From: Streptomyces sp. NBC_01267
GTDB lineage: Bacteria > Actinomycetota > Actinomycetes > Streptomycetales > Streptomycetaceae
Direction of reading: 5' to 3'
Length of the DNA: 64,000 bases
Assembly: GCF_036241575.1 (NCBI RefSeq)
Contig: NZ_CP108455.1
Coordinates: 124,001 to 188,000, forward strand
Shown one piece after another: positions 29,519 through 56,665 of the stretch (within the stretch, counting starts at the first letter, position 1; each line of letters opens with the position of its first letter). The position numbers were made by a program, and so were the translations under genes. Below the pieces are notes generated by a model. That model searched no databases and had not been told where the DNA came from. It saw nothing but the letters and a program-made list of their open reading frames with translations.

Positions 29519-29579
29519 CTAGAGCGCGTATCTCCCGTTGGCTGGCAGCTTCCCCCGCGCGCCGTATCTGATTCCTGGT

Positions 29580-30053: not shown

Positions 30054-30449
30054 AGCGATCCGGTCCCTGTGCCCGGGCAACAGACAGCCCCCAGTGGGCC
30101 AAGCTCCTGGAACAGTCGACTGGATCAAGCTGATTCAGTCGTGCCCGTTGACCTGTCTCTCCAGAGCGGGGAGAAGTGACTCTTGCCTTGCTCGCAGGGC
30201 TTCCGATGCGACTGTCAGCGAGAACCCTCTCGGGATGGCTCAGGCAAGGGCAGTCGCCGCTCAGGGCAGTCATTTCCAACCGAGTTACACAGCAGAGCCC
30301 AGCGGTAGCCACGAAAAGTAGTGCATAGATGCATCACCTGTCCTGCCCGGAAAGCGAGCTGACTGCCGGTCCGGAACTCACCTTCTTGGGGACCTGACGC
30401 AGGGTATGCATCGCGGTCGGTGCCGCGTCTTCGGGTCTGATGCACGATC

Positions 30450-33119: not shown

Positions 33120-34151
33120 ATGACGTTCGCCGCCTCCGCCGCGGAGGTACAGAGTGGCTGGACCGTCGAGACACCGGGGCCGATCAGCGGTGGTCCTCTG
33201 ATCCGCAGCCGAAAGCCAACACCCGTCCCGGGCCCAGGTGATCTGCTGCTGCGGGTGGAGGCCTGCGGTGTCTGCCGAACGGACCTTCATCTGGCTGAGG
33301 GGGACCTCCTGCCGCGCCGGCCATCGACCGTGCCCGGCCATGAAATCGTTGGCCGGGTGGTCGCCGTGGGCGAAGCAGTGACCTCGTTCCGTACCGGTGA
33401 CCGAGCGGGCGGGGCGTGGCTTCGTGGCACCTGCCAGAGGTGCCGCTACTGCCGGTCCGGCAGGGAGAACCTGTGTCCCGGGTCCACCTACACCGGGTGG
33501 GACGCGGACGGTGGCTTTGCCGAACTGGCCTTGGTGCCAGCAGCCTTCGCGTACTCCCTCCCGGAAGCTCCGGATGCCACTGCGCTGGCACCGCTCCTGT
33601 GCGCCGGGATCATCGGCTATCGTGCGCTTCGTCGCAGCGCACTGCCCCAAGGCGGGCGGTTGGGTATCTACGGCTTCGGGGCATCGGCCCATCTGGCGGC
33701 CCAGGTGGCCATGGCCGAGGGGGCCACCGTCCATGTGCTGACGCGGTCGGCGCAGGCACGCACGCTTGCGCTGGAACTCGGTGCAGCTTCCGCGGGCGAG
33801 GCGTACGACCTCCCTCCCGAGCCCCTGGACTCAGCGATCCTGTTCGCCCCCGTGGGCGACCTGGTGCCGGTGGCGCTGGAGGCGCTGGACCGCTCCGGCA
33901 CGCTTGCGATCGCCGGGATCCACCTCACCGACGTTCCGGTACTCAACTACCAGCGCCACCTCTTTCAGGAGCGGAATCTGTGCAGCGTCACGTCCAACAC
34001 CCGGCAGGACGGCCGTGACTTCCTGGCCCTGGCCGAACGCATCGGTATCCAGGTCACCGTGAGCCCCTACCCGCTGAGCCAGGCAGATCTGGCGCTCGCC
34101 GACCTGGCGGCCGACCGTGTCCACGGTGCCGCCGTGCTCGTTCCCGACTGA
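33120..34151 (+). CDS. Zinc-dependent alcohol dehydrogenase family protein
   Basis: 343 residues, full length for the MDR superfamily. The GroES-like domain has [18 protein letters not shown] (catalytic Cys), [15 protein letters not shown] (His-Glu) and the structural zinc set [15 protein letters not shown]. The Rossmann domain has [16 protein letters not shown], binding NAD(P). It oxidises or reduces an alcohol/aldehyde whose identity cannot be read from sequence. Similar genes in Streptomyces sit beside universal stress proteins in a DevR/OsdR-type dormancy regulon. Confidence 0.9.
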
Positions 34152-34343
34152 GCCGGCTTCCGGGCAGATCGGGCCATCAGGCGCTGCCCGGTGGGTGGTG
34201 AACCGGTGGCCCCCCGGTCTCACCCGCGGGTGGCATCACCGGCGAGGACGGTTCGACGTCGCCTGCGATTTTCACCGAGCCCCACTCAGGCCCCTTGGCT
34301 TTGTGGGCAACATGGACGTCCGTACGACGGCGCCCACAAGCGA

Positions 34344-34820
34344 TCACGTCTTCGACCGGAACGATTGTGACGGTGCAGCCGGCGCGATGGAGCCAGCGCG
34401 ATGGAGCACCCGATGACCGACGTTTTTCAGTTGTCCGGCCGTCCCCGCATGCCGGGAGTGTCCACCGATCACCAACAATCCTGCCTCCCGACTGGCCTCC
34501 GCGAGGACATCGCCGGCCGGCCCCTCCACCCCATAGCTACGGACGGGGACGCCTTCGTGACGCTCGGCGGCCCCGGCGACCGTCCCGTCAAGCCACTGCT
34601 GAGCCTGACGACGATGGGCGTCGCGCGCCTCGTCGTACTGCCCGGTGTGGGCCGTGGCGCTCTCGGTACGCGGGCAAATCCACGCATGCACCACCGCCAC
34701 ACCCCTGTCACGCCGGCGTGCCTCGCCGAAGGCGTAGTCCAGAACCTCGAGGAATGCGGTGCTGCGCCCCAACCCGACCACGACCCCACCCTGTTCGTCC
34801 CGCCGATGCCGTCGGACCAC
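34344..34820 (-). CDS. Universal stress protein (single domain, probably truncated)
   Basis: About 158 residues from GTG 34820 (GTG 34781 also possible). The UspA fold shows in VVVGLGRSTAFLEVLDYAFG, GVAVVHAWICPRT and the C-terminal nucleotide loop GLLVIGGHSRHAGTAGQL. Actinobacterial members near dehydrogenases normally have two tandem domains; only the second is here. The upstream side runs into a broken ATPase gene on the other strand, so the first domain was probably lost. Binds ATP in the family; role in stress survival is inferred. Confidence 0.65.
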   Translation of the reverse strand: MVRRHRRDEQGGVVVGLGRSTAFLEVLDYAFGEARRRDRGVAVVHAWICPRTESATAHTGQYDEARDAHRRQAQQWLDGTVAGAAERHEGVPVRSYGVEGPAGDVLAEASREAGLLVIGGHSRHAGTAGQLKNVGHRVLHRAGSIAPAAPSQSFRSKT

Positions 34821-34840
34821 CCTGACGGCCCGTCGTAGGG

Positions 34841-35065
34841 ATGCCGGGGGCAGGGAAGACCACGAGGGCTCGCCAGCTGGCCAAGGAGCACAACGCGCTT
34901 CGGCTGACGCCTGATGAGTGGATGATTCCGTTGCCCGTCGCCAGGCGCTCACTCCGGATCAGACCTTCCCGATGAACGAGGCGGACCTCTTGAACTGGAG
35001 GATGCTGTTCGAGGAGCCGGTTGCCGCAGAAGAACTCGATGGGGATGAGATTGGCCCCCGCCTCC
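34841..35065 (+). pseudogene. P-loop ATPase/kinase remnant with internal deletion
   Basis: MPGAGKTTRARQLAKEHNAL, then RLTPDEWMIPL, are the start of a zeta-toxin/AAA-like nucleotide kinase (Walker A GAGKTT; the 'DEW' motif). The frame then ends; a second frame gives NEADLLNWRMLFEEPVAAEE followed by LDGDEIG, like the C-terminus of the same family. About 100 middle residues are missing. Confidence 0.5.
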
Positions 35066-35213
35066 TGATTGGCCAAGTGGGCCCGAGTGGGCCGCCGATC
35101 GGTGGCCATCTTTCACTGCCCGCTCCTGAGGCAGGAATTCGTGGGAAAGTGGGTTCCTGGACGGGACTCTGGGCCGGTCCGGGTGAAGTTGCCGACCGTG
35201 AACTTGAGAACGA

Positions 35214-35830
35214 TCAGTCCCGGTTGGCCTCGCGGGAGGCGGGCTGTCCGCTCCTTCGGGAGGACCGCCGGGTGATGCGCCTGGTCATCAGCGTGATCGC
35301 GGCCCAGGTGATCAACGATTCCGAGTGCTGGATGAGCCGTTCGTAGTCGCGGGTATGACGGCGGGCATGCATGATCCACGCCAGCGACCTCTGGACGACC
35401 CACCGACAAGGCAGGATGACGAACCCGACGGCGTCCTTCGGCCGACTGATGGTCTTGAGCGTCAGGTTCAGATGTTTCTTCGCACAAGTCACCAGCTGTC
35501 CGGCGTAACCGGAATCGGCCCAGACGATCGTGATCTCGGGGTACATCAGCCGCAGCCGGAACAGCACTTCCTTGGCCGCTTCGCGATCGGTCATGCCGAC
35601 CGGGGTGACCATGACGAACAGCGGCAGGCCCTTTGCAGCCGGTGTCGACGACGTAGCGGATCGCGTCGACGATCTCGCGGCGAGAGTGCTTCTCAGGGCG
35701 TCCCCCTTTGGGGGGACTCGCAGGCCGGCGGCGGGAGAAGGGGTTCGATGAGGGCCCATTCGTCGGGGAAGGTGTCGGAGGGGTAGCAGCGGCTCCGGGA
35801 CAACTCGAACCTCCCTTCCAGAGACGGGAG
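35214..35830 (-). pseudogene. IS5-family transposase with deletion and frameshift
   Basis: N-terminal pieces DTFPDEWALIEPLLPPPACE and KHSRREIVDAIRYVVDTGCK are in two frames, broken at a CCCCCCAAAGGGGG run near 35705. They join directly to GLPLFVMVTPVGMTDREAAK and the DDE C-terminus (EITIVWADSGYAGQLV; RPKDAVGFVILPCRWVVQRS). The first catalytic part is deleted. Inactive. Confidence 0.75.
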
Positions 35831-35863
35831 TTGGGGAACGGCCGCGCCGTCTCCCAACCCCGG

Positions 35864-36175
35864 TCAGGTGTCGATGAAGTCGGAGATGATGTCGAGCGTG
35901 GACTCGACCGAGCTGAGCTGGGTGTTCAGGTGCTTGATCCACCGTCCCTTCGGCTGGAGAACGGCGTGCGGGCCGACGACGGCGGTGATGAACCGGCGGA
36001 TCTCCGTCAGCTCCTCCCTCACGAACCCGAGTTCGTATGCCTGGAGCTCGGCGGTGTCGGTGCAGAACCGGTAGCCGTCCTTCTTCGTCCAGATCAGGGG
36101 CGGCCAGCCCCGTTCGGAGATGATGTCGCGCAGGCAGGCCAGGCCCGCGCGGGTCTGGCTGGGTGTCAGTGCGGG
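35864..36175 (-). pseudogene. RacP-like plasmid gene, N-terminally truncated
   Basis: About 100 codons: LTPSQTRAGLACLRDIISER, then GWPPLIWTKKDGYRFCTDTA, then FVREELTEIRRFITAVVGPH and a stop. This matches the RacP-type proteins found on Streptomyces plasmids and integrative elements, whose first 35-40 residues are missing here. The coding start is replaced by the end of the TetR gene. Another sign of plasmid DNA. Confidence 0.6.
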
Positions 36176-36185
36176 CTGAGCGGGG

Positions 36186-36836
36186 TCACGGGGCGTTCCA
36201 GAGATCCCTCAGCTCCGCCCAGGTGGGCGGGCCGACCGATTGGATGCCGGTGTTCGCGGGGTTGCGAAGACCGCTCAGGACGAGGTCCAGGTAGCGCAGG
36301 TGCAGTTCGACCGCGCGCTCGGTGGTCGTGGGCAGGCGGGCGTTGAGGTGAGCGAGCAGCAGCAGGAGGTCTGCCGAGCTGAAGTCCGGGCGTAGTGCGC
36401 CGGACCGGTGGGCGGCGTCGACCAGGACGTCGAGTGCTGCCCGGAGGCAGTCGTCCGCGGCGTCCACTTCGTCGGTGGCTGGCAGGCGGCCCCCTATGAG
36501 AGGGAGGAGGGAGCCGGTGCCGGTGGTGGACAGCGTTGCTCGCAGGAAGGCGACGAGTGCGGCCCAGGGGTCGGGGTGGTCGGCCATGGCGGTGCCGGCC
36601 AGGGATGCCAGGTCGTTCATGCCCTCCACACGCAGCGCCTGGGCCAAGTCCTCTTTGGCGGGGTAGCGCCGGTAGAGACTGCCCATGCCTACGCCGGCAC
36701 GGCGGGCGACCTCCGAGACGGGGGCGTCCCAGCCGTGTTCGGCGAAGACTTCACGTGCCGCACGCAGGATCCGCTCGTCGTTGCGGTCGGCTTCCTTCTG
36801 GCGTCCGCGGGGCGGTTCGGTGCGGTCGGCGCGCAT
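36186..36836 (-). CDS. TetR/AcrR-family repressor
   Basis: 216 residues. The N-terminal HTH is RILRAAREVFAEHGWDAPVS then RRAGVGMGSLYRRYPAKEDL. The C-terminal ligand domain is helical, with LLLLAHLNARLPTTTERAVE near the end. It is encoded on the same strand 62 bp downstream of the MFS gene, so it probably represses that transporter; the 12-bp palindrome at 38613 is a candidate operator. Intact from ATG 36836. Confidence 0.9.
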   Translation of the reverse strand: MRADRTEPPRGRQKEADRNDERILRAAREVFAEHGWDAPVSEVARRAGVGMGSLYRRYPAKEDLAQALRVEGMNDLASLAGTAMADHPDPWAALVAFLRATLSTTGTGSLLPLIGGRLPATDEVDAADDCLRAALDVLVDAAHRSGALRPDFSSADLLLLLAHLNARLPTTTERAVELHLRYLDLVLSGLRNPANTGIQSVGPPTWAELRDLWNAP

Positions 36837-36897
36837 GCTCGTGCTCCTTCGGTGCGGCAGTCAACGCGGGTGCTGCCACGTGGGCGGGCTGACTGGG

Positions 36898-38397
36898 TCA
36901 GTGTGGGTTGCTGAGGACGGAAACCGGTGCTGCCAGTGCTGCCACGGTGGGCTCGGGTGTGGGCTCCTCGTGGTGCGGGCGGATGCGCAGGGCCCCGACG
37001 AGCAGGATACCGAGGGCGCCGAGCGCGGCGGCGACCCAGAAACCCACCGTGAAGGCCTTCTCGGCGGGCACGGGCGTGCCGTCCACGGTGAAGGTCTGCA
37101 GGAAGCCGACGGAGAGCTGGCTGCCCACGGCGCTGCCGACCGTCCGGATGACGGTGTTCAGCCCGTTGCCTGCGGCGATCTCGCGGCGCGGCACGAGGGC
37201 CGCGACCAGGTCGGCGAGCGCTGCGTACCCGTAGCCCGCACCGAGGCCGATCAGGCAGAACCACAGCGCGAGCTGCGTCGGGGAGCCGTGGAAGAACGCG
37301 GTGAGCACGGCTCCCGACGTCATCAGCGTCATGCATGCGGCCAGGGGTGCCCGGGCTCCGAGCCGCCCACGCAGCCAGTGCGCGGTCCGCCCGGCCAGGA
37401 CGACGCAGACCGAACTCGGCAGCACCAGCAGTGCGGCCTGGACGATGGTCAGGCCGCCTCCGTAGGAGGCCGCCGGGCGGAGCGCAGGCGGCAGGCCGTT
37501 GGGCAGCTGCAGCAGTTGCGGGACCAGGACGTAGAAGAAGAACGGCACGACACCGATCAGCAGCGCCGCGAGGTTGGTGACGAGCATCGGCAGATGGGTG
37601 ATGTGCCGGAGGTCGAGGATCGGGTCGGACCGGCGGGCCGACACCACGCCGAGTACGGCGAAGAGCGCCACGGCGGCCGCGAAGAGCGACAGCACTCCGG
37701 CGGAGAGCCAGCCCCACTTCGTGCCTTCGGTGATCGCCAGGAGCAGGGCGACGAGCCCGCCGGCCAGGAGAACGGCCCCGGGCACGTCGACGCGCTTGCT
37801 GTGGCGTTCGGGGCTTTCCGGCACCCAGGCGATGACCATGAGGGTCGCCAGCGCGATGAACACCGCTTCGACGCCGAACATCCAGCGCCACGAGGTGTGC
37901 TGGATGATCAGGGCGCCCAGGACCAGCCCGATACCCGCGCCGCCGCCGAGCATGGCGGCGGTGGTGCCGAAACTGGAGGCGATCCGTTCCCGGGGCATCG
38001 CTTCGCGGACGATGGCGAGGGCCAGTGGGAGCGAGGCCATGGAGGCGCCTTGCACCGCGCGCATCGCGATGAGGAAGCCGATGTTCGGGGCGGCGGTGCC
38101 CCCGAGGGTGCTCGCGAGGAATATGAGCAGGACGATCACGAGGAGTCGTCGGTGGCCGTACTTGTCGCCGAGCAGGCTCAGTACGGGGGTGAGGACGGCC
38201 CCGCCGAGCAGGAATGCGGTGATCAGCCATCCGGCCGTGGCGGTGTCGGTGTGCAGGCGTTGCGCGAGCACGGACATCGCGGGAATGACCAGGGTCTGCA
38301 TTAGCGAGAAGCAGCCCACCGCGGCAAGCAGTGCCGCCAGCACCAAGTTCGGTCGCGATGCCATCGCGCCACGGTGCTGGGTTCTGTTGTCGTCCAC
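36898..38397 (-). CDS. MFS drug-efflux transporter (DHA2 type, 14 TM)
   Basis: 499 residues from GTG 38397, preceded by AGAAGGAG. Fourteen hydrophobic segments are visible. The conserved motif A appears as LLGDKYGHRRLLVIVLLIFL, motif C-like glycines as GGGAGIGLVLGALI, and GLGAGYGYAALADLVAALVP marks a later segment. DHA2 members export hydrophobic drugs using the proton gradient. Co-directional with the TetR gene that follows it. The substrate is not deducible. Confidence 0.9.
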   Translation of the reverse strand: MDDNRTQHRGAMASRPNLVLAALLAAVGCFSLMQTLVIPAMSVLAQRLHTDTATAGWLITAFLLGGAVLTPVLSLLGDKYGHRRLLVIVLLIFLASTLGGTAAPNIGFLIAMRAVQGASMASLPLALAIVREAMPRERIASSFGTTAAMLGGGAGIGLVLGALIIQHTSWRWMFGVEAVFIALATLMVIAWVPESPERHSKRVDVPGAVLLAGGLVALLLAITEGTKWGWLSAGVLSLFAAAVALFAVLGVVSARRSDPILDLRHITHLPMLVTNLAALLIGVVPFFFYVLVPQLLQLPNGLPPALRPAASYGGGLTIVQAALLVLPSSVCVVLAGRTAHWLRGRLGARAPLAACMTLMTSGAVLTAFFHGSPTQLALWFCLIGLGAGYGYAALADLVAALVPRREIAAGNGLNTVIRTVGSAVGSQLSVGFLQTFTVDGTPVPAEKAFTVGFWVAAALGALGILLVGALRIRPHHEEPTPEPTVAALAAPVSVLSNPH

Positions 38398-38612
38398 TGA
38401 CGACTCCTTCTGAGGTTGAGGGCGGCGGCAGCACGCCGCGTGGGAGCGGGGGCGGTACGCCCGGCATAGGTCCGGCCGCCGTCCCGGGCGCCGATGTGAT
38501 GGCGGCTGGGCAGGAGACGCGGAGGCGTCACGACCGCGCGTGAACCGCGTGCGCCGTACTCGCACGCCGCGAGTGTCATGCCGCCCGGCCGGTGAATGTA
38601 AATCTATCGGAG

Positions 38613-38624
38613 CGGAGCGCTCCG
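38613..38624. promoter_or_regulatory. Palindromic candidate TetR operator
   Basis: CGGAGCGCTCCG is a perfect 12-bp palindrome in an AT-richer stretch (flanks ATCTATCGGAG and TTCAAATTT), about 215 bp upstream of the MFS start and just ahead of the rightward gene at 38632. Palindromes of this type (CGGAGCGCTCCG) are common binding sites of AcrR-like repressors. Confidence 0.5.
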
Positions 38625-38631
38625 TTCAAAT

Positions 38632-39902
38632 TTGCCCGGTCAGCCGGGCGCCGAGGAGATCGTCGACGCGTACGCGAAAAACTCGGCGTACAGCGATGTC
38701 CGCCGGTTCGCCCGTCTGCCCGACCGCAAGCGGGAGATGCGCGCGGCCTACGAGCAATCGGCCGAAGCAGGACTGGGACGGCCTGTCGGCTGGGCATGGG
38801 CGCAGGGCGCGGCCGCTCTGCAGGATCTAGACCATGAGCGGGACGGCGAGCCGGGCTGGGTGTTGTGTCTGGTGGCCGGATATCCTCCGGTCGCCGTCGC
38901 CGCGCCCGTCTGGCAGGCGATCGCCGAAGCCGGCCGGCATGCACCGGGCCAGGGTCCACTCGCGGCCATCGGCTTTCCCTGCCCGCCCGAGGGCATGGAC
39001 ACGCCGTGGGTGATCGCGGCCGACTCACGGAGTGTGGACCTCGACGGCGGATCGTGGGGCGCGGGCCGCCTGACGTGTTCGGAGCGCGGCGTGTGGCGGT
39101 GGCAGCCGCTCCCCCGCTTCAGCCTCAACCAGGGCCGGTCGGCCGAGAACTGGACTGCCGGGCAAACGCCGACGCTGCGCCTGCGCGCCGTGGTGAACCT
39201 GCCCTGGGCCAAGGCTGGCCGGCTGGAGATCAGCAAACCCCGGCGCGCTCTGCTCGAGCAGCAGCTTCCGCACAGCCCGGTGGCCGGGGCGGTGACGATG
39301 CCGTCCAAGCGCCGGGGCTCCAATCTGCCCGCCACTCGCTGGGAACGGGGGCCCTTCGGTAACTCGGCCCGCTGCGTCGGCTACTCGTGCACGATCGCCG
39401 GACCGGACGGCGGCCCGGCCCTGAAGACGTCCGTCATGCTCGCCCTGCCCACCACGATGGAGTCCACCGGGGTCGCCTGCGCGGACGTTCTGATCGAGAA
39501 CCCGCAGGCGTGGGCGGCAGCCGTTGGCCCCGGCCGGGACACGCGGCTGGGCTTCGAAGAGGTCCAGGCCGTGCTGCTGAACACGTGGGAGACGGCTACC
39601 GAGCTGCTGCCCGACATTGTCGGTGACCCAGCCGGGCTGTCGTTTGCCGCCCCGCCCACCACCGAACTGCGGATCACGTGCGAACAGCCCGCCGACAACG
39701 GCGTCCTGCCGACCCTGGACTCGCTCGTCGACCTGGCGTCGCTCGGCACGAGCGACGGTGGCACCCTGTCGCGGATGGCTGTCACCATCACGGCCGCGCC
39801 GACCATGGGCCGGGGGCGGAGCGCCAGAGCCTGCTGCGGGAGGCGCTGATGCACATGGCCCGCGAGTTCGGGTACGTCGACGCGGAGGTGGACCTGCTGT
39901 AG
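38632..39902 (+). CDS. Hypothetical protein, frameshifted near C-terminus
   Basis: Reads from about 38640 (AEEIVDAYAKNSAYSDVRRF) through VVNLPWAKAGRLEISKPRRA and WETATELLPDIVGDPAGLSF. Near 39812, in a GGGGGC run, the frame changes and the natural ending SLLREALMHMAREFGYVDAE VDLL lies in the next frame. TTG 38632 is the only near start, and the N-terminus may be missing, as the upstream sequence is the TetR/MFS promoter. About 420 residues, no family recognised. Confidence 0.5.
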
Positions 39903-40121
39903 GTGGGATACCGCGCCCCTGGGAGAAGGCGGCCAGGTCCGCTGGATGCGCGGGTCGAGTGGCCCCGTAGCCGCGCAGCGCGGGACTTGCGCCGACCCCA
40001 GGTCACCCGGTGGCGTCCCAGGCCTGTTCTTCGTCGGCAACAGCGAGCCGATCGTGTTCCGATCGGGCGGCTTCCAGCAGGCGCCGCCAGGACGTGACCA
40101 GAGGGCGACGTCGCAGCAGAG

Positions 40122-40250
40122 CCCGCCGTTCGCGCTCACTTCGCCCCAGATTCCGTGCTCGATGCGGTTATCGCGAGCGTAGGCGCGGCATTCGGTGCGC
40201 ACCGGGCAGCCGGTGCAGAGTGCCTTGGCTCTGCGTCCGGCCCGTGGACC
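40122..40250 (-). pseudogene. WhiB-family regulator fragment
   Basis: AKALCTGCPVRTECRAYARD then NRIEHGIWGEVSANGG carries the C-x2-C-x5-C part of the WhiB iron-sulfur motif and the GI/VWGG turn (here GIWGE). The first cysteine, the N-terminal helix and the basic C-terminal tail are absent. A relic with no complete cluster. Confidence 0.55.
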
Positions 40251-40424
40251 CCGGAGCCACCGCATAGACCCGTCCCGACGGTGAACTGCCCGCGACTGTG
40301 GCGGGCTACAGCTCGGAACGCGGGCCCGTGACCATGTCTGGTCCGTCCGGATGATCAGGGGCCGCAACTCCGGTGTTCGAACGGTCCCCCGGGCCGAGTC
40401 GGTCCGGGTAGCCCGCCGGTCAGG

Positions 40425-41474
40425 TCACTCCCACTCCACCCTGACCTCCGAGACCTCCATCAGGCCGTCGAGTTCGACCCGGCCGACGGTCTGGGCGGGG
40501 CTCACCGTGAGGCCGTCCCGGCGCACCAGATCGAGGAGGCGCTCGGCGAGCGGCAGCACCATGTGGCGGCCCCAGCAGCGCTCGTTGGCGTGGCCGAACG
40601 GCAGGTATCCGGGGTGGTCGTCCGGGTCCAGATCCGCCCACCGCTCGGGGAGGAAGGCATCGGGCTCCTCCCACAGGGCGGGGTCGCGGTGGCTGAGGAG
40701 GGGCAGCAGCAGGACGTCGTCCGCCGGGCCGATCCGGGGGTCCACCGCGGTGAATTCGGGCGAGGCCACCCGGAGGATGTTCCAGGAAGGCGGCAGCAGC
40801 CGGAGCGCCTCCGCGATGAGATGCCGGTTCGGGACGGCGTCGTCGAACGGTGCGCCCAGCCAGACCGCGTTGGTGACCAGCGCGGCCACCGTGAAGCAGA
40901 TCGGCGCCGCCACCCGCCGGTAGAGGTACATGGCGTACCGGCGGTCCGGGTAGGCGGCGGCGTCGAGGACGAGAGTGGCCAGCTTCGAGAGGGGTTCCGT
41001 GTGGCTGGGGCGGCGCAGCAGGGCGGCGCCCGACGTGACGGCGGACCAGGTCAGTTTCGGGGTGAGTTCCAGCCGGCGGTCCACCAGGACCCGGAAGCGC
41101 CCGAGCTCCCGCCCGAAGACCAGGTCCCGGAGGTAGTCGTGCGGCACCTGCGGCCACAGGCCGGTCAGGTCGGCCGGCGTCTCCAGGGGGCGCTGGAGCG
41201 CCTGCCGCACATCTGCCGCCACCGCCTGCATGTAGGCGGACGCGTCGGCCCGCTCGACGTTCCGGCCGCGGACGGGTTTGAAGGTCGGCCGCTCCTCGGT
41301 GTTGGCGGGCCGGCTGCGGAGCAGGGCGTCCAGCAGGTCGGCGCCCGCGACGCCGATCGTGTCGGGTTCCAGCCGGAACAGATCCTGGCCGGTGTGGCGG
41401 CTGAGCAGCGCGTCGATCTTGGGTGCGAAGCGCACCTGCCGGCCGCGGTGGCTGACGATCGGTCGCTGGGACAT
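40425..41474 (-). CDS. Cytochrome P450 of an atropopeptide-like locus
   Basis: 349 residues from ATG 41474 (GGAGG 9 nt upstream), shorter than the usual 400. The heme loop is FGHANERCWGRHMV (FGxxxxxCxG); the ExxR motif is EALR with RLLPPSW after it; ERWADLDPDDHPGYLPFG is the usual stretch before the heme Cys. The I-helix reads TVAALVTNAVW, without the acidic residue of the common AGxET motif. It is the only enzyme gene beside the 25-residue AWYGWI peptide gene 85 bp upstream. In tryptorubin-type atropopeptides one P450 installs all Trp/Tyr crosslinks, so this one is inferred to do the same. Confidence 0.88.
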   Translation of the reverse strand: MSQRPIVSHRGRQVRFAPKIDALLSRHTGQDLFRLEPDTIGVAGADLLDALLRSRPANTEERPTFKPVRGRNVERADASAYMQAVAADVRQALQRPLETPADLTGLWPQVPHDYLRDLVFGRELGRFRVLVDRRLELTPKLTWSAVTSGAALLRRPSHTEPLSKLATLVLDAAAYPDRRYAMYLYRRVAAPICFTVAALVTNAVWLGAPFDDAVPNRHLIAEALRLLPPSWNILRVASPEFTAVDPRIGPADDVLLLPLLSHRDPALWEEPDAFLPERWADLDPDDHPGYLPFGHANERCWGRHMVLPLAERLLDLVRRDGLTVSPAQTVGRVELDGLMEVSEVRVEWE

Positions 41475-41558
41475 CGGGAACCTCCGGGAGCGCGGGCCGG
41501 TGGCGGGCCATCGGGTCAGGCCCCCCACCGGCTTCCAGAACCTACGGGCGTGGGCCGG

Positions 41559-41636
41559 TCAGATCCAGCCGTACCAGGCGTACGCCTTGAGGCTCTTGTC
41601 GCTGCGCATCCGCTTCACGAGACGAACGAACTTCAT
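41559..41636 (-). CDS. Atropopeptide-like (tryptorubin-type) precursor peptide
   Basis: A 25-residue gene, too short for most gene callers. ATG 41636 has GGAGG 6 nt ahead; ATG 41648 in the same frame lacks a site. The basic leader (FVRLVKRMRSDKSLK) is followed by AYAWYGWI and a TGA. The last six residues, AWYGWI, line up with the tryptorubin A core AWYIWY (known sequence Ala-Trp-Tyr-Ile-Trp-Tyr), keeping both Trp and the first Tyr. It is followed directly by a P450 gene on the same strand, the two-gene layout of atropopeptide clusters. The final residue is Ile, not Tyr, so the crosslink pattern must differ or be smaller. I checked every codon. Confidence 0.85.
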   Translation of the reverse strand: MKFVRLVKRMRSDKSLKAYAWYGWI

Positions 41637-41856
41637 CCGGACCTCCATGGCGGGGAAGGTTCTGTTCCCCAGTTGCAGGCCGCCGAACGGTCTTCGGCTG
41701 CGGCAGAAGTGAATGCCGAGGCTCCCACGGCGTCAAGTGACCTGCGTCACCGCAAAGAACAGCCACCCGATGTTTGGCAGTAGTTCAGAGTGTGCGGTGG
41801 CAATATGCCCGCGGCAAGGCGGTCGATTGATCCCGATGTAGTGGATGCACATCCCA

Positions 41857-41872
41857 AGTTCCGTATAGAACT
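41857..41872. promoter_or_regulatory. Inverted repeat upstream of the peptide gene
   Basis: AGTTCcgtataGAACT is a 5-bp inverted repeat around an AT-rich centre, about 220 bp ahead of the precursor start, in the only AT-rich stretch nearby (41800-41915). It could be an operator or part of a promoter. No gene is supported in 41649-42114. Confidence 0.25.
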
Positions 41873-42114
41873 GCAGTATTGGCGGTTGCGATGTAGCAGC
41901 GGAGATTTTACGGAACGGGGGCCCCTGGCGCCTGCGGACGCGACCCGACCTGCCGAGCACGCGGCCCGTCACGGGGTGTCGGTGGAGACGACATACACCC
42001 TTCTGGCATGCGACAGGGTCCGGTCCACCGTGATGTCCACGGTCGGCTGCGGCTGCTTCTGGGTGAAGGTGGTGGGACCTTGACCCAAGGCCGGGTGGTT
42101 AGCGTTTTCGCTGG

Positions 42115-42650
42115 TCACGCAAGTGGGGCTGGGGACCATGGTATTGCGGCGTAGAGGCCGGGGCCGAGCTTGCGGACGAGCCCACCGACGGCCCACCGAT
42201 TCAGTTGTCCGTACATGGCTTCCAGGGTGATGTCGCCGAAGTGGGCGGCGATGTCGCGGGGTTGCCAGAGGCGCCTGCGGTCTTCCTGGAGGAGTGCCAG
42301 GATGCGGTGTCGGCGCCGCCCGGCGGGGTTGGCGTGCCGGTCGTCCCGGGATGCTGTGGGCAGCGCGGGTGACGGGTCCACGGGTTCGAGGACGGTGACG
42401 TCGAGGCGGGTGACGGTGCGGCTGGTGTCGGGCCGGCCGTCGGCGTGGCGCTCGCTGTAGCGGGACATCGGTGACTTGACCTTGCGGGTACTGACCCGCT
42501 GCCGGCGGGGCGGGAGCAGGCCGGTCAGGATCCGGCGGCCGATTGTCCCGAGAAGAGTCTCCCGATCGGTGTCCGCGCTGACGATGCCCGCGGCCTGCAT
42601 CACCTGGTCGCGGGCGGTGTGGAGCGCGATGCTGAAACAGCAGCGGTGGC
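42115..42650 (-). pseudogene. IS4-family transposase, C-terminal fragment
   Basis: Reads HRCCFSIALHTARDQVMQAA, RRQRVSTRKVKSPMSRYSER and a C-terminal winged-helix tail (RRLWQPRDIAAHFGDITLEA; GLVRKLGPGLYAAIPW). This is the end of the IS4 transposases common in Streptomyces. The catalytic DDE part is absent; the cut at about 42650 coincides with the Tn3 fragment on the other strand. Confidence 0.75.
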
Positions 42651-42654
42651 TTCG

Positions 42655-44020
42655 TTGATCTCCAAAGGTTCTGGCACAGATCTTGGGGAGATCTGCGACG
42701 CGTACGGCTACCACCCGTTCGAGGGCCATGCCCAGGGCCGGAGGTTCCGGGCGTTCCTGCACGGTCGGGCGTGGACGGCGCACGCCGAGGGGCCAAAGCG
42801 TTGTTCGACCACTCGGTGGGCTGGCTGCGCCGGCACCGGGTGCTGTTGCCGGGGGTGAGCGTGCTGGCCCGGCAGGTGTCCGAGGTCCGCGTCATCGCGG
42901 AGAAGCGGCTGCACACCACCGGCGCGAAGGCCGCCCGGCAGGCCGACCCCGCGCTGCCCGGTGATCTGGTCGCCACGCTGAAGACGCCGGAGGGCAAGCG
43001 GTACTCGGAGCTGGAGCGGATGCGCCAGCCGCCGACGCGGACCACTGGTACCGCGATGAAGGGCGCGTTGCAGCGAGTTGAGGACGTCGCCGCCTTCCAG
43101 CTGGGCCGCCTGGAGCTGGAGCTGATCGAGCAGAGCGGCTGCGATGTGGACGTGGCCGCGCTGTGGGCGGCACTGGAGGAGGTCGCGCCCCGTGCGGCGC
43201 TGTCCAGCTTTCGCGGCCAGCGTGGTGGTGAGCCTGGTCCCCGAGGACGACGGCACGGCCGAGAGTGCGCCGCGCGGGGCGCTGGCGTTGCGCTACAACA
43301 CCGTCAAGCCGTTCCTGTCGCTGCTGGGCGAGTCGAGGGCGCTCGGGGCGGCGACCGGCGGGATGCGCGTCCTGACCGGGGTGAAGCGGCTCCCGGCGCT
43401 GTCGCGTCGGAAGGTGGGCGAGAAGCCTCTGCTGCCGCGGGAGGTCGACGACAAGCTGGTGCCGGGACACTGGCGCAAGGCGGTGTACGCGAACGCCGAG
43501 CTGCCGCAGGGAGCGGTCGACCGTGACGCGTATGTGGTGTGCGTGCTGGAGCAGCTGTTCCGCACGCTCCAGCGCCGTGACATCTTCGCTTCCCCCTCGC
43601 ACCGCTGGTCCGACCCGCGCGCCCGCCTGCTGGACGGCAAGGACTGGGAGGCGGTGCGCGAGGACGTCCTGGCCGGGCTGAGCCTGGAGGAGGACACCGA
43701 GGAGCACCTGCGGGAGCTGACGGAGGTTCTGGACGCGAGGTGGAAGCAGATGGCCGAGCACCTGGAGGAGGCTGGCACGGACGCGAAGATCAGCATCGAG
43801 GTCCAGCCCAACGGGCGGGCGAAGCTGAACGTGGAGAAGCTCCATGCGCTCGGCGAGCCGAAGTCCCTGGCCTGGCTGCGCAGCCGGGTGGAAAAGATGC
43901 TTCCGAAGATCGACCTGCCGGACTTGCTGTTCGAGGTCCACGCCTGGACCGGGTTCCTGGACGCCTTCGTGCACCTGGGTAACGGCCGGACCCGTATGAA
44001 GGACCTGACCACCTCGCCCG
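42655..44020 (+). pseudogene. Tn3-family transposase, internal part with frameshifts
   Basis: Pieces in order: DLGEICDAYGYHPFEGHAQG, ALFDHSVGWLRRHRVLLPGV, EKRLHTTGAKAARQADPALP, SSFRGQRGGEP (frame break near 43215), ALRYNTVKPFLSLLGESRAL and LPDLLFEVHAWTGFLDAFVH. This is the N-terminal DUF4158 and middle region of a Tn3 TnpA. It stops at RTRMKDLTTS (about 44020), just before the catalytic DDE domain, and has at least two breaks. Non-functional. Confidence 0.8.
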
Positions 44021-44024
44021 CCTC

Positions 44025-44266
44025 GCGTCCATCAATCCTGACCGGGTCAAGATCCCCGACACCGGGGAAGGGCGTCGTCTGCGAGCCGCCCTCCGGCGCG
44101 TGCCCGCGGCTGCCAACAGGTGGCTCTGCGTCGTCTTCTGCTCCTCGATCGTGGCGTGGCCGGGGGCCAGGGCTGTACGTGAACGGGCCAGGAGCACCGT
44201 GCCAACGGCACCAGCAGCTGTCGTGACGCCGAGCACCACGGTGGCGGCTTCGTAGATCGCAGTCAC
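44025..44266 (-). CDS. Possible membrane-anchored protein cut by Tn3
   Basis: From GTG 44266 the frame starts with a hydrophobic helix (IYEAATVVLGVTTAAGAVGT) followed by basic residues, then enters the antisense of the Tn3 remnant. Only the first 40-80 codons could be genuine. Weak support. Confidence 0.25.
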
Positions 44267-44900
44267 GGGGAAGGTCCTCGGGGAATTGGAGCCGGGTCTC
44301 TGGACGTCGAGCGGGATGGCCAGGGCACCCCACGCGGGGATATCTGACGTCCGCAGACTCGACGGCTAGAGGTGGACGGAACGGGGGAAGCTCAGGTGCT
44401 CTTGCCAACCGGGCGGGATAGAGCTCATGTGGTGGTGGGGGCGTCAAACTGCCTTCAGATCCAACGGTTTGGAGCCTGATCACCAGCCTGCCCTGGCCGT
44501 CATCCGTCGGACCAGACGGCCGAAGGCTTCGGGGGTCATTCAGATGAGCCTTCGAACTCTCGACTCAGTCACCAGATGCGGGCATTTCCGGACGAGTCGA
44601 GTCGACACGGCATGTTCTCGCCCGGGAAATGACCCCCGATATGAGCCGCTGGGCAACGGGACGTCACCTTCGGACAAATGCCACGGCAGGAACGGGGTTG
44701 GCCAAGCCGCCGCACACCGCCCCATTTCTCTTTCAACCTCCCCGGGCTCTCGCCTCGATGCCGTTCCACACCGCAACGGGCCGAGTCGCCGCCCCAGTCT
44801 TCGCGATGAGAGCGAGCCCGTCGTGACTTCTCACTTGCCCCGGTGACGCCTGATCGCTGGATGGGACGAGCATCCCCTCGGTGTCGGCTGCCACCCCATC
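44267..44900. other. No supported gene
   Basis: Mixed-composition DNA with only short frames on both strands. A fragment MTPEAFGRLVRRMTARAGW (minus, about 44482-44541) looks faintly protein-like but cannot be assigned. I see no RNA gene, repeat or IS end. Confidence 0.4.
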
Positions 44901-44904
44901 GGGG

Positions 44905-45270
44905 GGGCAGCGATCAACCAGGGCCACGCAGCAGGGTGGGCGCCCGTTGCTGACGACAACGCGGTCGATGCCCTCCTCAGCACCCACGCACAGGGGGCAA
45001 CTGTCTACGACACCTCCGACGTCTACGGTCTCGGCCACTCTCTGAGACTGCTGGGCCGGATTCTTGCCCAAGTGTCGTAAGGAAGTTCGGATCACGTGCT
45101 CGATCGGGGCCTACAGAGGTACCGGCCCTCAACGCATACAGCCCTCTCAACCTGCACAGCCAGGCGGAGCAAAGCCTGGAGAACCTGGGCGTGGAGTACC
45201 TCGGCCTACTCACCTTGAACCACACCGACTTCGGACCGCACGACTGCTACCTGGAGGACGGGTGCCACGC
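44905..45270 (+). pseudogene. Aldo/keto reductase remnant
   Basis: DALLSTHAQGATVYDTSDVYG then LGHSLRLLGRILAQVS resembles the N-terminal AKR segment with the catalytic Asp and Tyr of D-x4-Y. After a stop and a frame change, YSPLNLHSQAEQSLENLGVE then YLGLLTLNHTDFGPHDCYLE is the next conserved AKR block. Sequence between and after is lost, so only about 40 percent of the enzyme remains. Confidence 0.6.
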
Positions 45271-45517
45271 CGACCCATCCTGTTCCGGCCCGCAGCGAGG
45301 GTCCGACACCAACCGCGCAAGAGCCTGATCGGGTGCCGCCCAACCCGCGTCCACTCGAACGTGTGAGTTCAAAAGCGTCCAGGCCCACAGGCACTGCCCT
45401 GTACATCATGACCGTATTCACGTTCGAAGAATTCGTCCGTCCGAGGCCGTGACGGCCCCGGACGGACGGCGTTTCTTAGAGCACCAGTACCCCTCGCGCG
45501 CCCAGATGGAGGATGAA

Positions 45518-45661
45518 ATGAATCCTGTACTCGCCCCCGTGCATCAGCCTCTTGGATTCGAACAACGACAGCCTGCTGCGGACCATCTCTCTGTCGATAC
45601 GCAGAGGGCCGACGCCGACGTCTGCCGCTCATCACAACCGGATACGGAGTGGGCAGCATGA
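45518..45661 (+). CDS. Short peptide gene coupled to ABC exporter, 47 aa
   Basis: ATG 45518 follows GGAGG (GATGGAGGATGAA) and the stop overlaps the ABC transporter start (ATGA at 45658-45661). The peptide reads VLAPVHQPLGFEQRQPAADH, then LSVDTQRADADVC and QPDTEWAA. No signal peptide or membrane helix. As the first gene of an exporter-plus-modification operon it could be a precursor peptide; equally it may be a leader for translational coupling. No precursor family recognised. Confidence 0.5.
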   Translation: MNPVLAPVHQPLGFEQRQPAADHLSVDTQRADADVCRSSQPDTEWAA

Positions 45662-47685
45662 GCGAGCCCACCGATGCAGCAGCCGACAACATCCCCAGTC
45701 CGCGCACCACCCCGGCCGCGGTACCACCGCCTGGACCGCAGCACGAACCTGACGGCTCATGCGCAGCCGAGGCAGTTGAGGAGGTCTCCCCCTCGGAGAC
45801 GACTGGCCCCGAGCCCCAGATGCGGTTCGTCGACCTGACCGGCAGCCGAGAAGCGGCCGGCCGCTCCATCCGCATGCGCGACATGGCCCGGCGCCTGCCC
45901 CAGCTGGTCCGGCGGTCGCTGGCACTCGCCTGGCGGGTCGACCGGCGGGCCACCACCGGCCTGCTGCTGTGCCAGACGGTGGCCGGCATGATGCAAGCCC
46001 TGGGCCTGATTGCGATCAGCGGTACCCTCACCGCACTGCTGACCAGCGGAGATGTCTACCACCGGCTCCTTCAGGCATGGCCGTCCGTAGCCCTGTTGGC
46101 CACCGCTTCCGGAGTGCGGGCCCTGTTGGGGATTACCGTCAGTTGGCTCTCCTCCCGGCTGAGCCCTCTCATGTCGCGCGAGGCCGAGCAGATGCTGCTC
46201 ACCGGCTGCGCCGAGGTGGAGCTCGCCGCCTATGACGACCCCGACTTCAACCGTGACCGGGAGGCCGCCGACCGCGGAGCGCAGGTCACCGGTGATTTGA
46301 TCAACGAGGGCCAGGACCTGATCGCCTCGGCTGCCTCTTTCCTGGCCGGGGCCATCGTGCTCGCCGGTGTGAGCTGGGTGCTCCTTCCCCTCCTGGTCGC
46401 GGCCAGCCTGCCGCAGGCCCTTGCCCAGGTCAGCGCCGCCCGGGTCCGCTACCTGGCGAACCTGCGGAGCAACGGCGACAACCGCATTCTGTCGGTGCTG
46501 CGTTGGCACATCTTCACCCGCGAGGCAGCCGACCAGATCCGCGCCGGCACGATGGCCGGTTTCCTGTCCGGCCGGTACCGGCAGACGGTGACCCGGATCA
46601 ACCGCGAGGACCGGACCGCGGCCGACAAGGGTGCCCGCATGTCGCTGGTCGGCGCGCTGTGCGGCGGCCTCGGATCGGGAGTGGTGTGGGCGGCGGTGGT
46701 GTGGCTGCTGGCCACCGGCCGCATCAGCGTCGGGCACGCCGGCACGGCCGTCTTCGCTCTGCAGACGGCGGGCCAATCGGTGCGCGGGCTGGTCGCCGTC
46801 GGGGCCCGTGCTGTGCGCACCGGCCTGTACATGGACGACTGGAGCAGGTTCCTCGACTTGGCCGGCGGATACACCATGCGCCGCGGCGAGCACCGGCCGA
46901 CGCCACCCGATGAGATCGAGATCAAGTCGGTCTCGCACCGCTACGCAGGGAAGGACCAGGACGCGCTGTCCGACGTATCGCTCACTCTGCGCCGGGGCGA
47001 GGTCACCGCACTGGTCGGCTTCAACGGCTCAGGAAAGTCAACGCTGTCGAAGCTGGTCAGCGGCCTGTACTTGCCCACGGGCGGGCAGGTGTTGTGGGAC
47101 GGCGTCCCCACCGACGATGCCGACCCGCAGTCGCTGTGGCAGCAGGTCGCCCTGGTACCGCAGGACTACGCGCACTGGCCGCTGACGGTGCGCGAGAACG
47201 TGACCCAGGGGCAGCCCACGGCCCGCGGTGACGCGGCGGTGCGTGAAGCGTGCGAGGCCGCCGACGCGGACGAGGTCGTCGACAAGCTCGGCGCCGGCCT
47301 GGACACCCTCCTGGCCCGCGAGTGGCTGAACGGGGAGGAGCTGAGCGGCGGCCAGTGGCAGCGCATCGCGCTCGCCAGGGCGTTCTTCCGCGAGGCAGGG
47401 CTCCTGGTCCTCGACGAGCCGACCGCGAACCTCGATCCCCGTGCCGAGTTCCGGATCTTCCAGCGGCTGCGGAACCTGGCCCAGGACCGGGTGGTGTTGC
47501 TGGTGACACACCGCATCACCAACGTGGCCGTCGCCGACCGGATCGTGGTCCTCGACGAGGGCCGAGTCGTGCAAGAGGGCACCTACAAGGACCTCGCCGG
47601 ACAAGAGGGCGGCCTGTTCCAGCAGTTGCTGTCCTACCAAGTCACCTCGGAGCCGGACGGCGAAAGGCACGGGACCCGCGCATGA
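45658..47685 (+). CDS. ABC transporter, fused permease and ATPase
   Basis: About 675 residues from ATG 45658. An acidic 75-residue N-terminal extension precedes a six-helix ABC exporter domain (helices from TGLLLCQTVAGMMQALGLIA to about residue 390), then the ATPase: Walker A GFNGSGKST, Q-loop VALVPQDYAHWPL, signature LSGGQWQRIALARAF, Walker B GLLVLDEPTANLD, H-loop LLVTHR. As a half-transporter it probably works as a homodimer at the membrane to export a product. The stop overlaps the next start (ATGA at 47682-47685). Confidence 0.92.
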   Translation: MSEPTDAAADNIPSPRTTPAAVPPPGPQHEPDGSCAAEAVEEVSPSETTGPEPQMRFVDLTGSREAAGRSIRMRDMARRLPQLVRRSLALAWRVDRRATTGLLLCQTVAGMMQALGLIAISGTLTALLTSGDVYHRLLQAWPSVALLATASGVRALLGITVSWLSSRLSPLMSREAEQMLLTGCAEVELAAYDDPDFNRDREAADRGAQVTGDLINEGQDLIASAASFLAGAIVLAGVSWVLLPLLVAASLPQALAQVSAARVRYLANLRSNGDNRILSVLRWHIFTREAADQIRAGTMAGFLSGRYRQTVTRINREDRTAADKGARMSLVGALCGGLGSGVVWAAVVWLLATGRISVGHAGTAVFALQTAGQSVRGLVAVGARAVRTGLYMDDWSRFLDLAGGYTMRRGEHRPTPPDEIEIKSVSHRYAGKDQDALSDVSLTLRRGEVTALVGFNGSGKSTLSKLVSGLYLPTGGQVLWDGVPTDDADPQSLWQQVALVPQDYAHWPLTVRENVTQGQPTARGDAAVREACEAADADEVVDKLGAGLDTLLAREWLNGEELSGGQWQRIALARAFFREAGLLVLDEPTANLDPRAEFRIFQRLRNLAQDRVVLLVTHRITNVAVADRIVVLDEGRVVQEGTYKDLAGQEGGLFQQLLSYQVTSEPDGERHGTRA

Positions 47686-47954
47686 GGGACCCCGACATTA
47701 CTTCACAAGCTTCGCCCGGGTCCGCTACCCCGGCTGCCCCGCACACCGTTGCCCCATCCACCAGTCCTTCCATGTTCCTCCGAGGTGTTGACGTGCCGAT
47801 CGCTCGCCCCCGCGTCCGCGCGACCGTCGGCAGCTATCCGACTCGGCATCCGTATGAGCGAGAGTCTCTTGCCGGGCTGCTTGCCGCCCTGGACAGCCCT
47901 GACGATCCGTCCAACCGCACGACGCTTCCCGGCAGCTCGGAGGTGGGGCGATGA
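47682..47954 (+). CDS. NUDIX N-terminal extension as free-standing small protein
   Basis: 90 residues from ATG 47682 (overlapping the ABC stop), or 53 from GTG 47793. The last 50 residues (RVRATVGSYPTRHPYERESL, ALDSPDDPSNRTTLPGS) are clearly homologous to the first 50 of the triple-NUDIX protein at 49921 (HIRATVEAYLSRHAEERGAL, VLDGTEEPSSRATLPG). Both copies share CGAGGTG(n3)ACGTGCCG around their GTG. The NUDIX domain itself is missing, so this is a partial duplication or a deletion remnant, still in frame and overlapping the next gene. Confidence 0.6.
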   Translation: MRDPDITSQASPGSATPAAPHTVAPSTSPSMFLRGVDVPIARPRVRATVGSYPTRHPYERESLAGLLAALDSPDDPSNRTTLPGSSEVGR

Positions 47955-48985
47955 GCGCCCGGTCCGGCGACATGGTCGTGGCGGGAGTCTTGGAGCTGCA
48001 CTACCGCATCATCCCGACCGACGTCTCCGAGGGGCCGTCAGGGACGGCCACCTGCAACTACGTGGCCCGGGATACCGACGGCCGGCGATGGTTCGTGAAG
48101 GCCTATCCGGTGAGCGCTGATCTGGGCGCCGAGCGGCGCTCCATCGAGCTGGCCGAGTTCGCCGCGCTCGGCAGCGCCCCGGTGCCGGTGATGCGCCGCA
48201 CCCTCGACGGTGATCTCATCGCGACGGGCGGCGGGTTGTCAGTGTCCGTCGCCGCGTTCGTCGAGGGTGCCGAGACAGCGGAAGGCGGTCTGTCCGGCAA
48301 GCGGTGGGCCGCTGTCGGCGAGACCGTGGGCCGGCTGCACCGCACGCTCGCCCGCCACCCGGCCGGACCGCCGTGTCGCGTGCCCGTCCGGCAGGTCTGC
48401 GATGTAAAACGGGCCCGGCAGCGCCTTGAAAGACTGCTCGCCTGTTTCAGCAAGAGGCCGCCCACCTCGGAGTTTCCCACCTGGGCACGGGAGACCGCCG
48501 TCCGACGGAACGAGGCGCTGCCTGCCGTGGCCGCCATGCTCGAAGAGCTCCCGGCGTCCTTGACCGTGCAGACCGTCCACGGCGATCTGGCCTCGCCCAA
48601 CCTGCTCCTGCGCGGACAGCAGGTAGCGGCATTGATCGACTTCCGGCCGCCCGGTCACCGGAGCCCCGCTTGGGAGCTCGGGCGGATCGTCCTCGACCCG
48701 CGCACCGTTCTGGCAGAGCCGCACTGGCCCACCGGCCTGGCCGAAGCGATCACCGCATACCGGGCAGCCAACCCAGCGTTGCCGGCCGAAGAACTCCTCG
48801 CCGTACCTCGGGTCGCCGCCGGATATCTGGCGTGTTCGGTGTATCCCCTGTCCGAGGCCGTCGATGACCCGGCCGCTGTCACCCCGGAGCTCGCGGCGTA
48901 CGGCCGGAACCGGCATGCGGCCATGGTCGAGCTGCGCGAGCGCCTGACGGAAGCCGAGGAGGTGCTCCATGACCTCCTCCATTGA
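47951..48985 (+). CDS. APH-type phosphotransferase (aminoglycoside/choline kinase fold)
   Basis: 344 residues. RWFVKAYP contains the ATP-binding Lys; VQTVHGDLASPNLLLRGQQV is the HGDxxxxN catalytic loop; VAALIDFRPPGHRSPAWELG holds the Mg-binding Asp (IDF). Such kinases phosphorylate a small-molecule hydroxyl in biosynthesis or self-resistance. The start overlaps the previous stop and the end overlaps the MFS start by 17 nt. Intact. Confidence 0.85.
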   Translation: MSARSGDMVVAGVLELHYRIIPTDVSEGPSGTATCNYVARDTDGRRWFVKAYPVSADLGAERRSIELAEFAALGSAPVPVMRRTLDGDLIATGGGLSVSVAAFVEGAETAEGGLSGKRWAAVGETVGRLHRTLARHPAGPPCRVPVRQVCDVKRARQRLERLLACFSKRPPTSEFPTWARETAVRRNEALPAVAAMLEELPASLTVQTVHGDLASPNLLLRGQQVAALIDFRPPGHRSPAWELGRIVLDPRTVLAEPHWPTGLAEAITAYRAANPALPAEELLAVPRVAAGYLACSVYPLSEAVDDPAAVTPELAAYGRNRHAAMVELRERLTEAEEVLHDLLH

Positions 48986-49916
48986 CCCCTCGTCCTCTCT
49001 CGCCACCCGGCCCTCGCTGTGGCGACAGCGCAACTTTCGGCGCTACCTGACCGGGCAGGCAGCCAGCGTGACCGGCAGCTCGATCAGCACCATGGTGATC
49101 CCCGTGCTGGCGGTGCTCGAACTGGACGCGACCACCGCCGAGGTCGCCTGGCTGACGTTCCTGGGCCAACTGCCCCCCGCGCTGCTGGCCTTGCCCGCCG
49201 GGGCCCTCGCCGACCGCCATTCCAAGCGGAAGCAGATGATCACCGGTGATCTCATCAGCGCCGCCGCGCTGGCCAGCGTGCCGGTGGCGGCCGCGCTGAA
49301 CCGGCTGTCCCTGGGTCAGCTGATGGTGGTCGCGGCCGTACAGGGCGCGGCGGGCGTACTGCACGACGCTGCCGCGATCAGTCTCCTGCCCAGCCTGGTC
49401 GACCGGTCCCTGATCAAGCGGAGCAACAGCCGCGTCGGCGGGCTCTTCGCCGTCGCCGCCACCGCGGGCAGCAACCTCGGCGCCGCCCTGACCGCGCTCC
49501 TCGGCCCGGCCTGGGCGCTTCTCGGGGACGTCCTCTCCTACCTCGTCAGCGCTTGGTGCACCGCCCGCATTCGGGCCCCCAAAAGCCCCCGGTCGGCAGC
49601 GGAAAGCCGCCGACTGCACACCGAGATCGGTGAGGGCCTGCGCTACGTGCACGGCGACCGCCGGCTGCGCACACTGACCCTCGTCAACGCCACGACGTCG
49701 GCCGCCCTGGCACTCCTCAACACCCTCTGGGCGCTCCACCTTTTCCGGTCCCTTGCGATGAGCGCGACCGCCTTCGGCGTGGTCCTGGGACTCGGAGCTC
49801 TGGGCGCGGCGGCCGGCGGACCCGGCCCCTGGCCCGGAGCCGTCATCGGCGGGCCCGCCGCCGGGCGCGCCCCTCTCGCCCCGTACCTACTTCCTGCCCA
49901 CCAACATTCGAGGTGA
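48969..49916 (+). pseudogene. MFS exporter, C-terminal half missing
   Basis: From ATG 48969: SLWRQRNFRRYLTGQAASVT, then LAGALADRHSKRK-type motif A (ALPAGALADRHSKRKQMITG). About seven membrane helices run to AFGVVLGLGALGAAAG. At about 49825 the sequence turns into a Pro/Gly-rich tail with no helices, so 5-6 helices are lost, apparently by deletion fused to the upstream region of the NUDIX gene. Unlikely to transport. Confidence 0.75.
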
Positions 49917-49920
49917 TCAC

Positions 49921-56623: not shown

Positions 56624-56665
56624 CACCGCGCCACCACCCCGCCTTTCACGAACGAGGAGCGATCT

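Follow-up and report, generated by a model that had tools for sequence, protein, structure and literature searches.

The 64,000-nucleotide stretch of Streptomyces sp. NBC_01267 DNA analysed here (the window) carries, with a probability that we put at about 0.92, a minimal two-gene cluster for an atropopeptide, a RiPP of the tryptorubin type, whose cytochrome P450 would cross-link the core of a short precursor peptide. Both genes lie on the minus strand. The precursor gene (41559..41636) consists of 25 codons (41562-41636) and a TGA stop (41559-41561), encodes MKFVRLVKRMRSDKSLKAYAWYGWI, and is preceded, 5 nt before its ATG, by a GGAGG ribosome-binding site (41642..41646). The leader contains the family-defining KSLK motif at residues 14-17 (41586..41597), and residues 20-25 (41562..41579) form the core AWYGWI, which follows the xWxxWx pattern, keeps Trp2, Tyr3 and Trp5, and has Gly and Ile at positions 4 and 6, respectively. 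An intergenic gap of 84 nt (41475..41558), with a second GGAGG at 41481-41485, separates the precursor stop codon from the ATG of a lone downstream P450 gene (40425..41474) on the same strand. The encoded protein of 349 aa has its ExxR motif at E222-R225 and the heme-ligand Cys300 within FGHANERCWG. Among the 120 relatives listed, P450 lengths are mostly 330-370 aa, and the window P450 is not truncated, a predicted model showing a whole P450 fold. A first-pass annotation had described the 25-codon gene with its own GGAGG, a core that keeps both Trp residues and the first Tyr, and the lone same-strand P450, and the sequence bears out all of this; only the gap, given there as 85 bp, is 84 nt from stop codon to ATG.

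Against the NCBIfam model NF038372, 'tryptorubin family RiPP precursor', whose curated cut-off is 33, the precursor reaches 51.2 bits (E 1.1e-13), and 48.7 bits in the genome search; this model matched 0 of 14 control genomes. The letter pattern alone is weaker evidence than NF038372: the degenerate pattern for WYGWI plus stop matches the window once, with 0 mismatches, and because 0.15 matches with up to 3 mismatches are expected in the window and 15 of 100 shuffles contain one, the pattern carries less weight. In the available text of PMC11450843, a class P450, a KSLK leader and a Trp at core position 2 are proposed as the genetic definition of atropopeptides, and all three are found in the window cluster. 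The P450 belongs to the class according to a tree of 89 P450s and its 58-70% identity to P450s of producer species; KSLK, which spans residues 17-20 in the precursors of that paper, is present in the leader; and the second residue of AWYGWI is Trp. The second Trp, at core position 5, agrees with the bitryptide subfamily (xWxxWx) as defined in the same text.

The IQ-TREE phylogeny of these 89 P450s was calculated without L059, which is almost identical to the window, and the 96-aa L134, and was midpoint-rooted for drawing only. In this tree, 86 rows, all except three P450s of the W-x-x-H type discussed below, form one supported clade, which includes the P450s beside AWYIWY precursors and that of Amycolatopsis xylanica, the placement of the latter being unsure because of its long branch. 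The window P450 falls in a 4-row clade (100/99) inside a 21-row clade (100/100), and the larger clade is made up of 18 rows labelled AWYGW[I/V], one from Amycolatopsis circi (AWYGWI, read by hand) and both Streptomyces varsoviensis P450s (P0070 and P0099). Four rows (L070, L119, L128 and L133) have no core label since the script missed or miscalled their precursors, which were read by hand. The window P450 is 70% and 66% identical to the two S. varsoviensis P450s and 58% identical to the A. xylanica P450. It is therefore not remote from the atropopeptide P450s but nested in their clade, and the family assignment made in the first-pass annotation holds by the NF038372 score, the three genetic features and this placement.

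The precursor-P450 pair is conserved in relatives. NF038372 matched 46 places in 44 of 392 genus genomes (the genome itself and a same-species genome included, with two places each); two of these places score below the cut-off, 42 genomes have a match above it, and a homologous P450 lies downstream on the same strand at 46 of 46. One precursor of the genus set (L049), for which the script gave no correct one, was read by hand. Exact AWYGWI followed by a stop was found beside homologous P450s in 7 of 384 genus genomes (the genome itself, the same-species genome and five others), and the backwards-read control pattern gave 0 in every row shown. In a named collection, from which the best 80 of 117 relatives were taken, the core is AWYGWI (13) or AWYGWV (1) at 14 of the 80 loci, which come from nine Streptomyces (one of the window's species), Kitasatospora purpeofusca, three Amycolatopsis and Nocardia pseudobrasiliensis. 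GGAGG precedes the precursor in the 13 AWYGW[I/V] loci with a script-called precursor (the same-species locus L059 included). The AYAWYGWI codons of 15 relatives contain 19 changes that are synonymous with respect to the window and 4 that are not. Three of these 4 replace Ala18, which precedes the core, by Ser or Lys, and the remaining one turns the terminal Ile into Val. Since the same pair and core recur in many relatives, the window cluster is genuine but unremarkable within the family, and the term 'undescribed member' used in the first-pass annotation does not fit so recurrent a core. Its remark that most annotation pipelines have a cut-off that excludes so short a peptide gene is likewise out of date, as both NF038372 and an antiSMASH 8 rule for the atropopeptide family (PMC12230676, in its available text) exist.

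In 11 relatives of other species, with 9-16 kb compared for each, the DNA that aligned to the window was limited to the P450 gene, the precursor gene (in 10 of the 11) and no more than about 0.3 kb of upstream sequence, so that the unit looks like a minimal two-gene cluster. It maps to roughly 165 kb of a 7.86-Mb contig, the genome totalling 8.07 Mb. The same-species genome (G358) aligns to window positions 33651-46583 at 99%, apart from one 3,064-bp insertion (site 44366-44369 in the window, L045 2219-5282, the two alignments sharing 4 bp there), and this insertion carries ORFs that resemble transposases as judged by eye. Just downstream of the P450, the ORF 39381-40367 contains a WhiB-like match of 37 residues (profile positions 22-58 of 65), which looks like a fragment; just upstream of the cluster, four long ORFs tested against Pfam gave no match. 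The region 45649-59753 contains an ABC exporter, APH-like kinases, NUDIX domains, methyltransferases and PIG-L, and at 56666-58981 a 771-aa fusion of methyltransferase, NUDIX and PCMT scores 370 bits against a cut-off of 320 for TIGR04364 (FxLD-system methyltransferase). The FxLD precursor model gave nothing above its cut-off in this genome, with weak matches also in 4 of 14 controls, and none of the small ORFs listed for 40-63 kb contains an FxLD motif. Transposase (DUF772) and integrase-core (rve) genes at 28510-31664 are probably mobile-element debris.

By analogy with characterised relatives, the basic leader would dock on the P450, with KSLK threading the core into the active site, before this one enzyme joins the aromatic side chains atropospecifically; host proteases would then remove the leader, often together with the N-terminal Ala. 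Leader docking, KSLK as an anchor and the installation of the bonds by one P450 are described in the available text of PMC11450843. The likeliest product would share the ring set of the varsorubins and tryptorubin, namely a Trp2-Trp5 C-C bond, a Trp2-Tyr3 C-N bond and a Trp5-backbone C-N bond, with a net loss of 4 H, and may be made with or without a monocycle that has lost 2 H; we somewhat favour such a three-bond ring set. The computed [M+H]+ values are 791.351 (loss of 4 H) and 793.367 (loss of 2 H) for AWYGWI, and 720.314 and 722.330, respectively, for WYGWI. Mass alone would not tell AWYGWI from the pentapeptide WYQWL of the varsorubins, because the two are isobaric at 794.375. As for the biological role of the product, signalling is a guess.

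The first-pass annotation had expected a new ring pattern because the last Tyr of tryptorubin A is missing. In PMC11450843, as far as its text is available, Tyr6 is the only residue that is not in the bicyclic ring system, and therefore its loss predicts no new rings; W2, Y3 and W5 are all kept here. In laurentirubin, the same text states, it takes a second P450 to bond the sixth residue, and a second P450 of this type is absent from the window cluster. A contrary point is that one sentence of that paper, on octapeptides, puts Y7 among the modified residues. Tryptorubin A (AWYIWY) resembles the window system in its KSLK leader, W2/Y3/W5 core and single P450, and differs at core positions 4 and 6, which are Ile and Tyr. 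The amyxirubins of A. xylanica have a homologous P450, the adjoining precursor ends in KSLKAYAWYIWW, and they differ by their aromatic last residue and by their distance from the window within the family tree.

By the P450 tree, the nearest characterised system is varsorubin. The varsorubins (sva cluster of S. varsoviensis) are, in the available text of PMC11450843, also products of a two-gene cluster with a W-Y-x-W core and an aliphatic sixth residue; their core SWYQWL is taken from that paper and not from DNA. The two S. varsoviensis P450s are linked to the varsorubins by species name, and the genome to which they belong was not found among the 384 genus genomes; either of them may be the characterised SvaB and stand beside SWYQWL. 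The same text reports that SWYQWL gives both varsorubin B1 (three bonds, loss of 4 H) and varsorubin B2a (one bond, loss of 2 H), so that a tryptorubin-like ring set is formed although no sixth aromatic residue is present. Varsorubin yield rose about 100-fold, by the same account, once an extra ribosome-binding site was placed before the P450 gene.

This second varsorubin bears on the alternative that the window cluster does make an atropopeptide, but one with a simple monocycle like those of scabrirubin, varsorubin B2a and cihunamide B, closed by just one bond between Trp2 and Trp5. We regard this as possible but clearly less probable than the three-bond set. Scabrirubin, from a KSLK-type precursor, and cihunamide B, both of the bitryptide type, are likewise Trp-x-x-Trp products of P450 macrocyclases; compared by their descriptions in the partial texts available, both have a single Trp-Trp C-N bond. 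The reading stays alive because the promiscuous enzyme ScaB turns many WxxW precursors, SvaA among them, into Trp-Trp monocycles with a loss of 2 H (PMC12352619, available text), and the Gly between Tyr3 and Trp5 may make the loop more flexible. On the other hand, the nearest characterised system also yields the three-bond B1, and Tyr3 is kept in 14 of 14 AWYGW[I/V] cores (best 80 of 117 loci), as would be expected if it is bonded. In the available text of PMC11450843, P450 phylogeny is said to be a possibly poor guide to structure, and one enzyme gave the different crosslink patterns of the varsorubins; the crosslink pattern is therefore not derivable from sequence.

More doubtful is the proposal that in the AWYGW[I/V] P450 clade, which spans Streptomyces, Kitasatospora, Amycolatopsis and Nocardia, enzyme chemistry and core changed jointly, Gly4 and the aliphatic residue 6 going with Tyr183 of the P450, and that the product now has a bond set unlike that of any characterised atropopeptide. 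A comparison of 84 P450s, from which, besides L059 and L134, L137 (short) and L040 (a copy of L061) were left out, shows Val68, Glu123 and Tyr183 in 18 of 18 AWYGW[I/V] P450s, and Leu, Asp and Gly at these positions in 64 of 64 other family P450s. In both P450s of S. varsoviensis these residues are Val, Glu and Phe, a difference from the window P450 at position 183. Judging from these alignments, Tyr183 could change the chemistry of the AWYGW[I/V] enzymes; however, as these enzymes form one clade, the pattern may reflect ancestry rather than function. In addition, a Xanthomonas vasicola P450 beside the core SWGLYM, which has a non-aromatic last residue, is one of the 64 with Gly183, which argues against a simple rule linking residue 6 and position 183.

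It is very improbable that the cluster has decayed or fallen silent and yields no product. No sigma-70-like promoter consensus was found in 40250-42050 (0 against 0.1 expected, in a type of scan that misses many Streptomyces promoters), but both reading frames are intact, the ribosome-binding sites, heme Cys and ExxR are kept, the core changes across species are mostly synonymous, and the P450 of the same-species genome is 99.7-100% identical. The least credible reading, a different P450-RiPP family (of the biarylitide, cittilin or aminopyruvatide type) that resembles atropopeptides, is in our view already refuted by the phylogeny and the precursor. Although ApyO is the best-matching NCBIfam model for the P450, it scores a weak 67.1 bits against a cut-off of 525; the 25-residue precursor with KSLK and xWxxWx lies above the tryptorubin-family cut-off, the P450 is nested among P450s beside AWYIWY-type precursors, and the biarylitide precursor has five residues (PMC13417212, available text).

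WYGWI and AWYGWI were not found in the freely searchable full-text literature or in two papers on the family, and the product and ring pattern of AWYGWI were not seen in the searchable texts. Published RefSeq surveys probably list AWYGWI strains, since many of these strains carry RefSeq-type contig names, and the published catalogue of 683 clusters (PMC11450843, available text) probably lists such cores. By mass alone, kitasatides 1019 and 1017 (so named in the available text of PMC12299652) would correspond to SAWYFWY less 2 H and 4 H, respectively, and if this is right, kitasatide is not the AWYGWI product.

The genome contains three paralogues, that of the window included, and so does the same-species genome. 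One is a second atropopeptide cluster (C1:1965764-1967041; L001, L033) with the tryptorubin A core AWYIWY in its precursor MKLIHSLKNKIRPEKNLKSYAWYIWY (C1:1966964-1967041); its P450 is 65% identical to the window P450, and its leader carries KNLK, a variant absent from the motif list in the available text of PMC11450843. The other (C1:7719190-7720230; L034/L139) has a P450 only 38% identical to that of the window, an upstream ORF, MKMIKALVSKFKKDEDLASHAWVLHVI, and a downstream JmjC_2 protein (PF08007, 70.1 bits). This precursor, of 27 aa, has EDLA instead of KSLK and a core of the form [A/S]W-x-x-H-[V/L]I. At an E-value limit of 1e-80, 3 of 246 genus genomes encode a P450 of the W-x-x-H type, and at 1e-70, 19 of 297 family genomes do so; the genome itself is included in both counts. 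In the tree, the three P450s of this type are sister, under the midpoint root, to the 86-row atropopeptide clade. Precursor, P450 and JmjC gene stand together at 21 of 21 distinct loci (69-100% identity; relatives L140, L141 and L149-L166). The cores at these loci are AWVLHVI (12), AWILHVI (4), SWILHVI (2), SWIAHVI, AWENHLI and AWPLHVI (1 each), encoded by 12 distinct DNA sequences, and about the position of KSLK they have EDLA (18), EDLS, DDLA and EELA (1 each).

NCBIfam gave no match for the W-x-x-H precursor or the JmjC protein, and no description of W-x-x-H cores or Trp-His P450 RiPPs was found in the literature, although a subscription survey might list them. The only literature match for JmjC, P450 and RiPP, in the text available, was biphenomycin, which has JmjC hydroxylases of another cluster type, and JmjC hydroxylation of a RiPP therefore has precedent. 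AWVLHVI minus 2 H (834.475) has the nominal mass of gristide 834, a match treated as a probable coincidence because gristide 834 is described as a biarylitide in the available text of PMC12951456. Taken together, the W-x-x-H cluster is a candidate for an undescribed sister RiPP family, with a predicted Trp-His crosslink and hydroxylation.

The W-x-x-H/JmjC paralogue is more novel than the window cluster, and it is the larger opportunity, because its precursor has no NCBIfam match and the KSLK rule, as published in the available text, would miss it. With the window cluster itself, a family in which few products have been solved gains a core that recurs but is apparently uncharacterised, and the cluster offers a clean test of whether residue 6 of the core and position 183 of the P450 set the ring pattern.
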